Shown here in pieces: positions 38,526 through 43,606 of a DNA stretch of 64,000 nucleotides. A program made the position numbers and the translations under genes. The stretch is from Gemmatimonadota bacterium. GTDB taxonomy: Bacteria > Gemmatimonadota > Gemmatimonadetes > Longimicrobiales > Gaopeijiaceae. Position 1 is the first letter of the stretch; the number at the start of each line of letters is the position of its first letter. The stretch is from assembly GCA_022823365.1 (NCBI GenBank), contig JAJDXG010000056.1, positions 186,001 through 250,000 of the forward strand. The letters run 5' to 3'. The notes below the pieces were generated by a model. It did not search any database. It saw only the letters and a list, made by a program, of their open reading frames with translations, and was not told where the DNA came from.

Positions 38526-39557
38526 GTGACATCGTCCTGGAAGCCCCTCGTCGGGCTTTCCGTCAGCGTCCTGCTGCTCTGGTGGGTATTCCGCGGCGAG
38601 GACCTGGGCGCCATTGCCGCCGAGGTGGTGGCCGCCGACCCGTGGTGGCTGCTGGCATCGGTGTTCGTCGCGACCGCCGGCTACCTGTTGCGCGCCATGC
38701 GATGGCAGGTGCTGCTCACCCCGCTCCGATCGCAGACCGGTCTGCGGGCCCGCTTTGCCGCCACCGCCATCGGATTCATGGTCAACAACCTGCTGCCCGC
38801 CCGTGCCGGCGAATTCGCCCGCGCCTGGTCGCTCGCGCGCATGGCGAAGATGCGGACGTCCGCGTGCCTGTCCTCCCTTGTCGTCGAGCGCCTCTTCGAT
38901 GGGATCACGGTTGTCGCGCTGCTGGTGGTTTCGCTGTCGCTGCCGGGGTTCCGCGCGGACTCGGAGCTCGCCGGCGAGCTTGTCGGAGGCGCGGTTGCCG
39001 GGTTCCTGGCCGTGCTTGCGATCGTCATCCTGACGGTGACGTTGGTGCTGGCGCGTCCGAACCTGGTGCGGACCGCCGCTCGTGCGCTGGCCTCCCGGCT
39101 GCCGGGCGCTGCCGGGGACAGGGCGCTGTCCATTCTGGACGGGCTCATCCAGGGGCTGGGTGCGCTTCGAAGTCCAGAGCTGGTGGCGCGCGCGGCGGTG
39201 TGGAGCCTGGTTTTCTGGCTCTGGCATTCGGCGTCGTTCTGGCTCGGCTTCCGCGCCTTCGGCATCGATGGCGGATACTCGGAAGCGCTCTTCCTGAACG
39301 GGATCACCGCGCTGGCGGTCGCGCTGCCCTCGGCGCCGGGGTTCTTCGGTCCGTTCGAGGCCGCGGTGCGGGTCGCGCTCGTCGGTGTCCTCGGGGTGGG
39401 CGAGAACCCGGCGCTGGCGTTCGCCGCGGGATACCACGTCACGACGTTCATTCCCGTGACTGCGATCGGGCTCTGGTACTTCTGGCGTATGGGGTTTTCG
39501 TTCCGGCAGATCGGGCTGGCGCGGAGGGGCGGCGAAGAGGCGGTCCCGGCGCGGTGA
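38526..39557 (+). CDS. YbhN/UPF0104-type lysylphosphatidylglycerol synthase TM-region membrane protein
   Basis: 343 residues with about eight hydrophobic helices. Family pattern: 'YLLRAMRWQVLLTPL', 'ATAIGFMVNNLLPARAGEFARAWSLARMAKM', 'LSSLVVERLFDGITVVALL', 'ALPSAPGFFGPFEAAVRVALVG' and 'AAGYHVTTFIPVTAIGLWYF'. It resembles the membrane half of MprF without the synthase domain; such proteins are thought to move or handle lipids, but function is not established. GTG start, and its stop overlaps ispE (GTGA). Confidence 0.85.
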   Translation: MTSSWKPLVGLSVSVLLLWWVFRGEDLGAIAAEVVAADPWWLLASVFVATAGYLLRAMRWQVLLTPLRSQTGLRARFAATAIGFMVNNLLPARAGEFARAWSLARMAKMRTSACLSSLVVERLFDGITVVALLVVSLSLPGFRADSELAGELVGGAVAGFLAVLAIVILTVTLVLARPNLVRTAARALASRLPGAAGDRALSILDGLIQGLGALRSPELVARAAVWSLVFWLWHSASFWLGFRAFGIDGGYSEALFLNGITALAVALPSAPGFFGPFEAAVRVALVGVLGVGENPALAFAAGYHVTTFIPVTAIGLWYFWRMGFSFRQIGLARRGGEEAVPAR

Positions 39558-40456
39558 AGCGCGCGGTCGTGGTCGAGGCACCTGCCAAGGTCAATCTCGT
39601 GCTGCGCGTGGGCGCGCGGCGCGCCGACGGGTACCACGACGTGGACACCCTCTTCGCCGCGGTCGGGTTGTGCGACCGCGTGCGGGTGGAGCGCGCCGCG
39701 GCCGGCATCACGGTGGAGGTCGCCGGCGCCGACCTGGGCGACCCGCGCGACAACCTGGTATACCGGGCGGCACGCGCGTACCTCGACGCGCGCGGTGAGC
39801 GGGGCGGGGTGGCGATCCGGCTGGAGAAGCGCATTCCGGTCGGTGGGGGGCTGGGGGGCGGTTCCTCGGATGCGGCGGCGACGCTCCGCTGCCTGGACGA
39901 GTTGTTCGGTCCGCCCCTGGGCGTCGCCGCGCTCACCGGGGTGGCGCGCGGCCTGGGCGCCGACGTCCCCTTCTTCCTTTCGCCGTCGCCGCTCGCACTG
40001 GGTGGCGGCCGAGGCGACCACCTCACGCCGTTGTCCCCGCTACCGCCCCGCCCGGTGCTTCTGGTCTGGTCGCCGGAGGGGGTCGGGACGGCCTGGGCGT
40101 ACAACCTGCTCGCGCACGGCAGGGGTGGGGGCGTGGAGTCGCCGTCCGCCGGGCAGCCAGTCTCCGTCACACCGGCTCGCTGCCGGGACTGGGCGACCGT
40201 GGCCGGGATGGCCCACAACGACTTCGAGGCGCCCATCTTCGCCGTCCGCCCCGACCTCCGCGACACGATGCTCTCGCTGCGGGAGACCTCGCCCCTGCTG
40301 GCGCTCATGTCGGGTAGCGGCAGCACGATCTTCGCGGTCTACCGGCACGGGGAGTCGGCTGCGCGAGCTCACCGCCAGGTCCAGCTGCTGCACGGAGGCG
40401 GACACGTCCATCTGACGACCACCCTTTCGAGGTTTCCCGCGCTGCAAACGGCGTAG
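39554..40456 (+). CDS. ispE: 4-diphosphocytidyl-2-C-methyl-D-erythritol kinase
   Basis: 300 residues. GHMP kinase: 'APAKVNLVLRVGARRADGYHDVDTLFAAV' (substrate motif), ATP loop 'IPVGGGLGGGSSDAAATLRCL', 'GLGADVPFF' and the C-terminal 'ALMSGSGSTIFAVY'. It performs the fourth step of the MEP isoprenoid pathway (the same deoxyxylulose-P feeds pdxJ, two genes upstream). Its GTG start overlaps the preceding membrane gene. Confidence 0.95.
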   Translation: MKRAVVVEAPAKVNLVLRVGARRADGYHDVDTLFAAVGLCDRVRVERAAAGITVEVAGADLGDPRDNLVYRAARAYLDARGERGGVAIRLEKRIPVGGGLGGGSSDAAATLRCLDELFGPPLGVAALTGVARGLGADVPFFLSPSPLALGGGRGDHLTPLSPLPPRPVLLVWSPEGVGTAWAYNLLAHGRGGGVESPSAGQPVSVTPARCRDWATVAGMAHNDFEAPIFAVRPDLRDTMLSLRETSPLLALMSGSGSTIFAVYRHGESAARAHRQVQLLHGGGHVHLTTTLSRFPALQTA

Positions 40457-40473
40457 CGCGCCCCGGTTCGCTC

Positions 40474-40502
40474 TTGAGACCGCAGCGGCGCACAAGTAGG
40501 AT
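40474..40502 (+). promoter_or_regulatory. probable promoter of tRNA-Gln and the following gene
   Basis: TTGAGA, a 17-base spacer and TAGGAT, with the -10 ending 18 bases before the tRNA 5' end. The spacing is ideal and the match to sigma-70-type sites is good. Confidence 0.55.
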
Positions 40503-40520
40503 TCCGAGAGCCATCGTGGG

Positions 40521-40591
40521 TGGCCCGTCGTCTAATGGCAGGACACCGGTCTTTGGAACCGGCGGTGGTGGTTCGAATCCACCCGGGCCAA
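40521..40591 (+). tRNA. tRNA-Gln (anticodon TTG)
   Basis: A full cloverleaf can be drawn. The acceptor stem TGGCCCG/CGGGCCA pairs over seven positions. The anticodon stem CCGGT/ACCGG closes the loop CTTTGGA with anticodon TTG (reads CAA, glutamine). The T-arm is GGTGG-TTCGAAT-CCACC. The base at 40591 (A) would be the discriminator. CCA is not encoded and must be added by the CCA enzyme. It is followed after 15 bases by the Shine-Dalgarno of a protein gene. Confidence 0.95.
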
Positions 40592-40620
40592 TCCGCTCCC
40601 GCTCCGAAGGAGGAGCCCTC

Positions 40621-42444
40621 ATCGCGAGTCCGGTTCTCGCACCCGCCACGCTCGCGCTGGCCGCGAGCCTTGCCGTGTCGTCCGTGGCGGCCGCGGTTCC
40701 TCCGCGGGAGGATCGCAACCCGCCTCCGGATCCATCTCCGCAGGAGGCGCCGGCGCAACCCGACTCCTCCGCGATCCACGACCGGGCCCGCGACGCGCAG
40801 CGGCGCTTCGAGCGTGTGCGCGTGCAGCATCTGCCCCGGTCCATCGAGCCCGGGTCCTCCCCGTGCGACGAAGTCATCGGCCGCATGTGCTACTGGCACG
40901 GAGACAATCACCACGAGCCGGATCCAGAGGCGGTGGAAACCACGGTGGCGCGTGAGGAGCTGCTCGACACCCTGGCGCACGCCGCTCGCCAACTGCCCGG
41001 GGACGGCTGGATCGCGGGCCAGCGCGTCTTCTACCTGGTGGAGGCGGGCCGGGCGCACGAAGCGCTCGAGGTTGCCCGCGGCTGCGCCGCTCCGGAGCCT
41101 GACCTGTGCGAACTGCTGCGCGGTCTCGCGCTCCATCGCCTGGAGCGTTTCGAGGACGCGGAGCGTAGCTACCGGATGGCCCTGGAAGCGATGGATTCGC
41201 GCGATGCCGAGGAGTGGCTTTCGCTGGCTCTCCTGCTGGAGAGGACGGATGAGTCCGGCCTGGACCGGCTCGATCCCGAAGCGCGCGAGGCGGCGAGCCG
41301 CAGACTGTGGGCGCTCGCCGATCCCTACTACCTTGTGCGCGGCAACGACCGCTGGACCGAGCACATGAGCCGGCACGCCGTGAGTCGCATTCAGCGGCGC
41401 GCGCGCAATCCCCACGGGCTGCCGTGGACATCCGGCCTGGACGAACTGGCCATTCGCTACGGGCAGGAAACCAGCTGGACCCGATACGTGCCCGCCAGCG
41501 GATCGAGCATGACTCCGCGGGTGACCGGGCGCCATCCTCCCCACTCCGAGCGGTATATGCCCCCGGACGGCGTGCTGACCGGTGTTGCCAGCCTGCCCCC
41601 GGGCATGGTCTGGGGCGACCCGGTCGAACGGCCTCGTAGCGCGTATGCGCCATCCTATGCCCCCGAACTGGGGACGATGTACACCGTGCTCGCCCGCTTC
41701 CGGCGCGGCGACTCGCTGCTGGTTGTGGCTCCGTTCCGGTTCGAACCGCGGGACACGTCCGGAGCAGTGCCCGGCCCGGGCAGCCGGGAAGCAGGGAGTG
41801 AGCATCGGCGCGATGTTCAGGCGGGACTGTTCCTCGTGCCCTGGGCGGAGACGACCGGGGAGGTGCGTCCGCCGACGCAGCGCATGCTATCGGACAGGGG
41901 CACGCTTTCGCTCGTGGTGCCGCTCGGCAGCTACGTATACAGCGTGGAAGCCCTCGACCGCCGGGCCGGCCATGGAGCGCGCTTTCGGGGAGACCTCGCG
42001 CTGGGTCCGCATCCGGATGACATCCCGGATCTCTCCGACTTCCTGATCATCGAAGCTCCGGAGCGGATGCCCGAGTCGGTCGATGACGTCCTGGACCGTG
42101 CGCTGCCTTCCCTGGCGCTCGGCGGGCTGCAGGAGTTGGCGGTCGCGTGGGAGGCCTACGGGCTCGGAACGGGCGAAAGCCGGATCGCCTACAGCCTCGG
42201 AGTCGAGCCGCTCGACCGGTCGTTCTTCCGCCGGCTGGGAGAGTTCCTGAGGCTGGTGGGGAGAGGGGATCCCCTGACGCTGGAGTGGATCGAGCCGAGC
42301 CCGGGGCGTCCGGGTGCGCACTTCCGCTCCGTCGATCTCGATTTCAGAAACCTGGAACCCGGTACCTACGAGCTCCGCCTGGAGCTCCGCGTCGACGACT
42401 GGGCTCCCGTGATACGACGCCGGCGCGTGCAGATTGTCGGGTAG
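40621..42444 (+). CDS. exported protein with a short TPR-like segment, apparent ATC start
   Basis: 607 residues if read from ATC 40621. A perfect AAGGAGG ends seven bases before that codon, and no ATG, GTG or TTG lies nearby; the next standard start (GTG 40675) would remove most of the signal peptide. The signal-like stretch SPVLAPATLALAASLAVSSVAAA is followed by a Pro-rich region, then a helical repeat segment at about 115-190 ('ELLRGLALHRLERFEDAERSYRMALE', TPR-like) and a beta-rich C-terminal half. No family recognised. It is directly behind tRNA-Gln and probably shares its transcript. Confidence 0.75.
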   Translation: MASPVLAPATLALAASLAVSSVAAAVPPREDRNPPPDPSPQEAPAQPDSSAIHDRARDAQRRFERVRVQHLPRSIEPGSSPCDEVIGRMCYWHGDNHHEPDPEAVETTVAREELLDTLAHAARQLPGDGWIAGQRVFYLVEAGRAHEALEVARGCAAPEPDLCELLRGLALHRLERFEDAERSYRMALEAMDSRDAEEWLSLALLLERTDESGLDRLDPEAREAASRRLWALADPYYLVRGNDRWTEHMSRHAVSRIQRRARNPHGLPWTSGLDELAIRYGQETSWTRYVPASGSSMTPRVTGRHPPHSERYMPPDGVLTGVASLPPGMVWGDPVERPRSAYAPSYAPELGTMYTVLARFRRGDSLLVVAPFRFEPRDTSGAVPGPGSREAGSEHRRDVQAGLFLVPWAETTGEVRPPTQRMLSDRGTLSLVVPLGSYVYSVEALDRRAGHGARFRGDLALGPHPDDIPDLSDFLIIEAPERMPESVDDVLDRALPSLALGGLQELAVAWEAYGLGTGESRIAYSLGVEPLDRSFFRRLGEFLRLVGRGDPLTLEWIEPSPGRPGAHFRSVDLDFRNLEPGTYELRLELRVDDWAPVIRRRRVQIVG

Positions 42445-42476
42445 CGCGGGCCCGCTGGCGTCGGGCAGAACGCGCG

Positions 42477-42505
42477 TTGACGCTCCTCTCCGGGGTGTCT
42501 ACACT
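42477..42505 (+). promoter_or_regulatory. probable promoter of the prs-rplY-pth operon
   Basis: TTGACG, a 17-base spacer and TACACT, 58 bases before prs. Close to the sigma-70 consensus in both elements and in spacing. Confidence 0.5.
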
Positions 42506-42562: not shown

Positions 42563-43606
42563 ATGGACGATCAATACCGCCGCGGTCCGCTGTTGCTTCT
42601 GGCTGGCCGGGCCAACCGGCCGCTGGCCGCGGAGATCGGGGAGAAACTGGGCGAGTCGGCCTTCGGCGCCACGGTGCGGGATTTCGCCGACGGCGAGATC
42701 TTCGTCCGGCTGGACCGCAACGCGCGCGGCCGCGACGTCTTCATCATCCAGCCGACGACGACGCCGGCCGACAACATCATGGAGCTTCTCCTCCTCGTCG
42801 ACGCTGCCGTGCGCGCCTCGGCCGCCCGGGTCACCGCGGTGGTGCCCTATTTCGGCTACGGACGCCAGGACCGCAAGGACCAGCCGCGGGTCTCGATCGG
42901 CGCCAAGCTGGTCGCCAACCTGATCGTCGCGGCCGGGGCCGACCGGCTGCTGGGCATCGATTTCCATCAGCATCAGATCCAGGGATTCTTCGACATCCCC
43001 GTGGATCACCTGTACGCCGCGCCGGTGCTGACCCGTTACTTCAGCGACATGAACCTGGACGACCTGGTCGTCATCGCGCCCGATGCGGGGTCCGCGAAAA
43101 TGGCCCGCGGCTTCGCGCGCCGCCTCGGGGCTTCCCTGGCGGTCATCGACAAGCGGCGGCGCACCGCGAACGTGGCGGAAGTGGTCAACGTGGTTGGCGA
43201 GGTGGAGGGCAGGACCTGCCTTATCGTCGACGACATGGTCGACACGGCGGGCACCCTCACCAACGGCATCTACGCCCTCAAGGAACGCGGGGCGGCCGCG
43301 GTCTACGCCTGTGCCACCCATGCCCTCCTGTCGGGAAGGGCGTCCGAACGGCTGCAGGGCGCGCCGGTGGAGGAAGTCGTGGTCACCAACACGATCGGCA
43401 TCGCTCCGGAGTTGCGCTTCCCCAAGCTCAAGGTGCTGTCCGTGGCCGGGCTTCTCTCCGACGCCATCCGCTACATTCACTCCAACGCCTCGGTGAGCCA
43501 GCTGTTCAGGATGCCGGCCCGCGAGGCGCCGATCGTGGTAGAGGCCGCTGACGGCGATCCCGCATCCGCAAGCGCGTGGAGTGCGCGCGCAGCCAATCCC
43601 GTCTGA
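42563..43606 (+). CDS. prs: ribose-phosphate pyrophosphokinase (PRPP synthetase)
   Basis: 347 residues. Family landmarks: 'FADGEIFVRLDRNARGRDVFIIQPT', 'AVVPYFGYGRQDRKDQPRVSIGAKLVANL', 'GIDFHQHQIQGFFDIPVDHLYA', 'VVIAPDAGSAKMARGFARRL' and the PRPP loop 'CLIVDDMVDTAGTL'. It makes PRPP from ribose-5-P and ATP for nucleotides, His and Trp. The C-terminal 25 residues are an extension beyond the usual length of about 315. It is followed by rplY and pth, a common bacterial gene order. Confidence 0.96.
   Translation: MDDQYRRGPLLLLAGRANRPLAAEIGEKLGESAFGATVRDFADGEIFVRLDRNARGRDVFIIQPTTTPADNIMELLLLVDAAVRASAARVTAVVPYFGYGRQDRKDQPRVSIGAKLVANLIVAAGADRLLGIDFHQHQIQGFFDIPVDHLYAAPVLTRYFSDMNLDDLVVIAPDAGSAKMARGFARRLGASLAVIDKRRRTANVAEVVNVVGEVEGRTCLIVDDMVDTAGTLTNGIYALKERGAAAVYACATHALLSGRASERLQGAPVEEVVVTNTIGIAPELRFPKLKVLSVAGLLSDAIRYIHSNASVSQLFRMPAREAPIVVEAADGDPASASAWSARAANPV

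Follow-up and report, generated by a model that had tools for sequence, protein, structure and literature searches.

A tRNA-Gln Gene and an Exported-Protein Gene with a Candidate AUC Start as a Probable tRNA-First Transcription Unit in Gemmatimonadota

Introduction

Transfer RNAs and mRNAs are joined on common transcripts in several genetic systems. In E. coli, tRNA-mRNA operons such as thrU-tyrU-glyT-thrT-tufB and secG-leuU have been described, and in mitochondria tRNAs punctuate the transcripts, such that tRNA excision sets the mRNA ends.

Archaeal examples have also been reported; the articles cited in this study are cited from the parts of them that were available. Transcripts joining tRNA-Val to sRNA8 and a 5′ tRNA-His half to valRS are described in Nanoarchaeum equitans, and RNase Z has been proposed for the sRNA case (PMC3491384). 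The processing of tRNAs in Streptomyces and E. coli is treated elsewhere (PMC4681348), and the available part of a further article (PMC3985628) contains nothing bearing on the question considered here. Furthermore, non-canonical start codons have been characterized in bacteria: infC, cvfC1, and ccpN of S. aureus carry conserved AUU/AUA starts with extended Shine-Dalgarno (SD) motifs, and reduced initiation was measured for cvfC1 and ccpN (PMC13009471). An engineered AUC mutation in rny of B. subtilis led to far lower expression (PMC10303841), an AUC-start match in Neisseria is a broken gene (PMC10210955), and AUU, CUG, and AUC occur among annotated prokaryotic starts with variable incidence (PMC9845219).

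This study is focused on a tRNA-Gln gene and the protein gene behind it, here called X, in the window, i.e., the whole 64,000-nucleotide stretch of Gemmatimonadota DNA that was analyzed. No published report of this tRNA-Gln/X unit was found among the open-licence PMC articles listed in searches on tRNA-mRNA units and on AUC or non-canonical starts. Individual loci of related genomes are denoted by L numbers.

Organization of the tRNA-Gln/X Locus

The features of the locus lie on the forward strand of the window. The ispE gene (39554–40456; Pfam GHMP kinase domains, with NCBIfam NF011202 and TIGR00154 over cut-off) is co-directional with the tRNA-Gln(UUG) gene (40521–40591), which was identified by ARAGORN as tRNA-Gln(TTG) and has discriminator A at 40591; 64 bases separate the ispE stop from the tRNA. 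Between the two lies the promoter-like site TTGAGA-N17-TAGGAT (40474–40502), with the −35 box at 40474–40479 and the −10 box at 40497–40502. A spacer of 29 bases (40592–40620) follows the tRNA and contains the SD sequence AAGGAGG (40607–40613), 7 bases upstream of the codon ATC (40621–40623) from which X, a protein of 607 amino acids, can be read in an open frame to 42444 (40621–42444). Downstream are a second promoter-like site, TTGACG-N17-TACACT (42477–42505, read from the sequence), and prs, encoding ribose-phosphate diphosphokinase (42563–43606; Pfam and NCBIfam), followed by rplY (43637), pth (44275), and a membrane pyrophosphatase gene (Pfam, NCBIfam). The preliminary description had placed an exported-protein gene immediately behind tRNA-Gln, with 15 bases between the tRNA end and the SD sequence; this order is conserved in 11/11 genus genomes, and the distance from 40591 to the start of AAGGAGG at 40607 is exactly that stated.

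The N-terminus of X reads as signal-peptide-like. No Pfam match was found for X at a threshold of 0.001, and no Pfam or NCBIfam family exceeded its cut-off; a weak TPR-like stretch was detected under its cut-off (TPR_1, E 0.0085). The AlphaFold model of X, computed from 10 close sequences, had a mean pLDDT of 34.7 and was not used for fold search. From its sequence, we infer that X is a periplasmic or surface protein whose N-terminal half is helical and TPR-like.

The DNA of the stretch was matched in all 11 genus genomes examined, which yielded 10 distinct sequences. All 10 share the promoter, the tRNA, the 29-base length of the spacer, AGGAGGAGCC, and the ATC; 10 of the 29 spacer columns are variable, and every one of these lies outside AGGAGGAGCC. 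On this comparison, the genus-wide retention is more than chance. The two genes have the layout of a dicistronic unit, i.e., they are co-directional and are separated by a short spacer in which no terminator-like site was found.

The explanation that best accounts for the locus as a whole, and which we regard as reasonably probable, is a tRNA-first unit with 3′ excision of the tRNA, an mRNA leader of approximately 29 bases, and an AUC start. Briefly, transcription would start approximately 10–12 bases upstream of tRNA-Gln from TTGAGA/TAGGAT and run through the tRNA into X. Because the tRNA lacks an encoded CCA, TCC following the discriminator instead, RNase Z, or RNase E/G acting in the short spacer, would cut at or just past the discriminator, and the X mRNA thus released would begin with approximately 29 leader bases. 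AAGGAGG would then position the ribosome for initiation at AUC; as this weak codon is one of those that IF3 discriminates against, X translation would be kept low. In this scheme, the order of the genes, the promoter, the spacer, the SD sequence, the ATC, and the lack of another promoter or terminator in the scan rest on sequence and conservation, and we infer the transcript, its start point, its cleavage, AUC initiation, and low X expression.

Candidate Start Codon of X

The codon at 40621 is ATC and not ATG, GTG, or TTG, and it is invariant in the 10 distinct genus sequences. From the tRNA to this ATC, in-frame ATG, GTG, or TTG codons were found in none of the 10, and eight of them, the window included, also have no canonical codon from the ATC to the hydrophobic stretch; X of the window thus has no ATG, GTG, or TTG start ahead of the signal peptide. 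In the remaining two sequences codon 5 is canonical, being ATG in L010 and GTG in L037, at 19 bases from the SD sequence. AGGAGG is present in 10/10 and AAGGAGG in 9/10 of the distinct sequences.

The SD sequences were scored in 23 loci, comprising two genus loci and 21 others whose ATG starts were chosen by hand. The two genus loci match the anti-SD sequence over 7 and 6 bases before the ATC, and in the 21 others the match at distances of 3–13 bases does not exceed 4 bases, with the exception of L057, in which the 5 bases TGATC match at a distance of 13. In L091, AAGGA lies one base ahead of the ATG, which is beyond the range of distances scored. As an SD sequence of 6–7 bases occurs only in the two genus loci among the 23 scored, a strong SD sequence accompanies the weak codon. 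A comparable arrangement is seen in infC of the genus (L140–L150), whose start behind GGAGG is ATA in 10/11 genomes and ATC in the remaining one (L140). A nearby stop codon closes the upstream frame in the ATA genomes, whereas this frame is open in L140; non-AUG starts of the AUH kind with a strong SD sequence therefore appear usable in the genus. X shares with this class the lack of a canonical start, a conserved AUH codon, and a strong SD sequence, apart from the codon-5 exceptions in 2/10 sequences. ATC 40621 behind the extended SD sequence is hence the best candidate start of X, and AUC initiation of X in the window's genus is likely.

The chief rival explanation is a different start of X, with three candidate sites: an ATC/ATT that includes the discriminator base (40591), GTG 40675, and TTG 40474, from which the frame would run through the tRNA. 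We consider this explanation unlikely. The signal peptide n-region counted from ATC 40621 is devoid of Lys and Arg in 10/10 distinct genus sequences, and a start at 40591 would add Arg residues to it in all 10, yet this codon has no SD sequence. GTG 40675 occurs in 8/10 sequences, but it also lacks an SD sequence, is missing in L010 and L041, and would cost most of the signal peptide. The X frame is open through the tRNA, and tRNA-internal start codons in frame with X occur in 14/62 family loci; however, none (ATG, GTG, or TTG) is found inside the tRNA in the window's genus, and TTG 40474 lies before the expected transcription start. The ORF caller opens the X frame at this TTG, in the −35 box, and continues through the whole tRNA, and the start of X is therefore liable to misplacement by automatic annotation.

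The variable columns of the spacer number 4/9, 3/10, and 3/10 by codon position, and those of X codons 2–16 number 6, 5, and 7 of 15, and neither has periodicity. Three four-fold sites under the SD sequence are conserved, which is weak evidence (chance about 0.12).

Proposed tRNA Maturation and Predicted Near-Leaderless Relatives

Release of the X mRNA by tRNA 3′ processing is plausible. The window's own genome encodes RNase Z (332 bits; cut-off 293) as well as RNase E/G (479 bits; cut-off 326), and an RNase Z over cut-off together with a tRNA lacking encoded CCA is the combination expected for tRNA punctuation. As alternatives to release by RNase Z, RNase E may cleave within the spacer or the precursor may be translated uncut. 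A structured precursor that conceals the SD sequence was also considered and rejected, as the predicted fold is no better than that of shuffled sequences (z −0.43); its minimum-energy structure is not a cloverleaf.

Candidate starts of X lie much closer to the tRNA in several relatives. The sole ATG, GTG, or TTG from the tRNA to the hydrophobic stretch in L063 and L079 is an ATG that follows the discriminator at a distance of 3 bases, and L088 has an ATG at the same distance plus a TTG at 54 bases. Counted in the same manner, the ATG is at 5 bases in L025 and at 10 in L061, which additionally has a TTG at 52, and in L031, which also has a GTG at 62, it is at 8 or overlaps the discriminator. 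In L021 and L028, the interval from the tRNA to the hydrophobic stretch is free of ATG, GTG, and TTG. A cut at the discriminator in L063, L079, L088, L025, L061, and L031 would thus leave leaders of 3–10 bases. Were the cut made there, L063, L079, and L088 (ATG at +3) and L025 (+5) would fit the leaderless class, to which X of the window does not belong because of its predicted 29-base leader with AAGGAGG. The 14 family loci with in-frame start codons inside the tRNA include L063, L079, and L088, so that in these three a start within the tRNA on uncut RNA is possible.

In the second rival explanation, the uncut precursor is translated, the folded tRNA forms the 5′ untranslated region of X, and the fates of tRNA and mRNA compete. 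The SD sequence and the ATC lie entirely outside the tRNA, and translation could hence proceed without cutting; precedents come from the 5′ tRNA-His half that defines the 5′UTR of the valyl-tRNA synthetase gene in N. equitans (PMC3491384) and from tRNA-Lys within the TK0306 5′UTR in Thermococcus kodakarensis (PMC4247193), as given in the available parts of these articles. Against it, the tRNA-Gln sequence was matched only once in its own genome, from which efficient maturation would be expected, and the 3 bases between tRNA and ATG in L063, L079, and L088 leave no room for an SD sequence. We consider translation of the uncut precursor quite unlikely as the main route, and excision of the tRNA before translation is preferred.

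Predicted Promoters of the Probable tRNA-Gln/X Unit and of prs

In a scan of 39500–42500 on both strands, TTGAGA-N17-TAGGAT was the only promoter-like site (one found; shuffle mean 0.1), which bears out the preliminary claim that it is the only good promoter of the interval. The same scan detected neither a promoter-like site nor, again as had been claimed, a terminator-like site between tRNA-Gln and X; its sole terminator-like site is at 39955–39968, within ispE. As the promoter scan ended at 42500, the site of prs at 42477–42505 was missed by it. The promoter of the tRNA is kept in the 10 distinct genus sequences, with TTGAGG in one of them. The promoter-like site of prs, compared in a single representative per distinct sequence, likewise retains both hexamers and the spacing in all 10; with this conserved promoter of its own, prs allows tRNA-Gln and X to be a unit separate from it, unless transcription continues through.

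Across the family, the pattern TTGA..-N16..18-TA...T was sought in two regions, namely the 100 bases that precede the tRNA, and the tRNA itself with 100 bases of its downstream flank. It was found upstream of tRNA-Gln in 48/76 distinct family regions (0.6% in dinucleotide shuffles) and was absent there from the other 28; the commonest −10 forms are TAGGAT (24) and TACGAT (9). Within the tRNA body or the 100 bases after it, the pattern occurred in 0/48 family stretches. Judged by the sequence pattern alone, the promoter is thus confined in the family to the region upstream of the tRNA. Cotranscription of tRNA-Gln and X from the tRNA promoter is very likely from this comparison, and the single transcript proposed in the preliminary description is well supported by it. 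As a separate observation, 13 of the 48 pattern-bearing regions (e.g., L011, L026, and L063) have a −10 box that ends 8 bases ahead of the tRNA; at this distance, transcription would start at or beside the first base of the tRNA, and RNase P would have hardly any 5′ leader to remove.

According to a third explanation, X is expressed mainly via read-through from ispE or beyond, the tRNA being cut from a long polycistronic RNA and its own promoter being minor. The co-directional ispE gene ends near the tRNA, with no terminator-like site found between them, and read-through may contribute to X expression; as the main source of X mRNA it is improbable, because the promoter adjacent to the tRNA is conserved across genera.

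Distribution in the Family and Beyond

X or a paralogue was matched in 91 of 96 family genomes, and tRNA-Gln in 83 of the 96. Linkage was surveyed in 90 family stretches from 84 genomes, picked for a match to X or to the tRNA, and was considered direct if the first alignable X residue lay at most 420 bases behind tRNA-Gln. By this definition, tRNA-Gln is directly before X in 52/84 genomes (52/90 stretches), representing 25 of the 40 genera sampled. The two are 0.5–3.6 kb apart in 10/90 stretches; in 5/90, prs follows tRNA-Gln and X is missing from the stretch; and full tRNA-Gln is absent from 9/90. Neither X nor prs was found in 14/90 stretches, eight of which extend less than 500 bases past the tRNA; in L090, another of the 14, X is present by reading of the sequence and partly masked.

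Outside the family, prs is located within approximately 200 bases behind tRNA-Gln in 6/20 stretches (L113, L116, L121, L122, L123, and L126). Furthermore, a different protein gene, encoding approximately 212–229 amino acids, is found between tRNA-Gln and prs in two genomes of another family of the same taxonomic order (L127, 793–1482, plus strand; L130, 2039–2677, minus strand). Their products share 58% identity; they had no match to a Pfam family, nor did X match them. Since prs or another gene takes the slot outside the family, the slot behind tRNA-Gln looks old, and X looks like an insertion before prs in the family.

The remaining rival explanation, mere proximity of several protein genes that came to sit behind tRNA-Gln with no functional coupling, draws on these other occupants of the slot and on the 10 distant family pairs, but is very improbable given the close tRNA-X linkage in 25 genera, the invariant spacer length in the genus, and the lack of the promoter pattern behind the tRNA.

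Two further arrangements were observed in the family. In L066 of genus g17, an ORF of 611 amino acids (995–2830), whose start reads as signal-peptide-like, lies between tRNA-Gln and X. In two genomes, the 3′ portion of tRNA-Gln is present again, as a copy of 41 or 46 bases, directly ahead of X (L092, 2286–2326, the same place as L013, 1392–1425; L018, 1309–1354). Approximately 1.5 kb with rtcB on the opposite strand (Pfam RtcB, E 3.4e-70) separates the whole tRNA from the 3′ copy in L092, an arrangement that resembles the scar of an integration event at tRNA-Gln.

Comparison with Known Systems

Cotranscription of tRNA and mRNA is already known; what is new is the conserved, probable tRNA-first unit with its predicted AUC start and its predicted near-leaderless relatives. 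A broader reading, offered tentatively, is a bacterial form of tRNA punctuation: a family-wide tRNA-Gln promoter would produce the tRNA together with the mRNA of a secreted protein, whose 5′ end would be created by tRNA 3′ maturation. This mRNA would be near-leaderless in the relatives with ATG at +3 to +5, and in the window's genus it would carry a leader with a strong SD sequence and an IF3-sensitive AUC, so that X output would depend on how the tRNA matures as well as on the fidelity of initiation. If true, the locus would provide a natural bacterial case of tRNA 3′ maturation creating an mRNA 5′ end. Relatives spanning near-leaderless to SD-led mRNAs would allow a shift of initiation mode to be traced at a single locus, and the conserved AUC start would extend such starts beyond infC, being of a kind overlooked by ORF callers.

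The tRNA-Gln/X unit resembles the E. coli operons in that one RNA would serve tRNA and protein genes and be split by tRNA processing, whereas it has a single leading tRNA with the tRNA's own promoter and no encoded CCA, and its protein gene has an ATC start and a product without an assigned function. The likeness to mitochondrial punctuation is closest in the relatives whose ATG lies 3–5 bases behind the cut, near-leaderless; by contrast, the present case is bacterial, concerns one unit and not a whole genome, and involves a predicted cleavage, and the leader retained in the window's genus would be 29 bases long and contain a strong SD sequence. The archaeal transcripts, as described in the available parts of the reports, similarly have a tRNA or tRNA half immediately upstream on one RNA, although they belong to archaea and the downstream RNA there is an sRNA or another mRNA (PMC3491384, PMC4247193). 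Finally, the AUU/AUA starts of S. aureus share with X a weak AUH start and a strong conserved SD sequence, as far as the available part of the report covers them, whereas the codon of X is AUC, its start is predicted, and the gene lies behind a tRNA in another phylum (PMC13009471).
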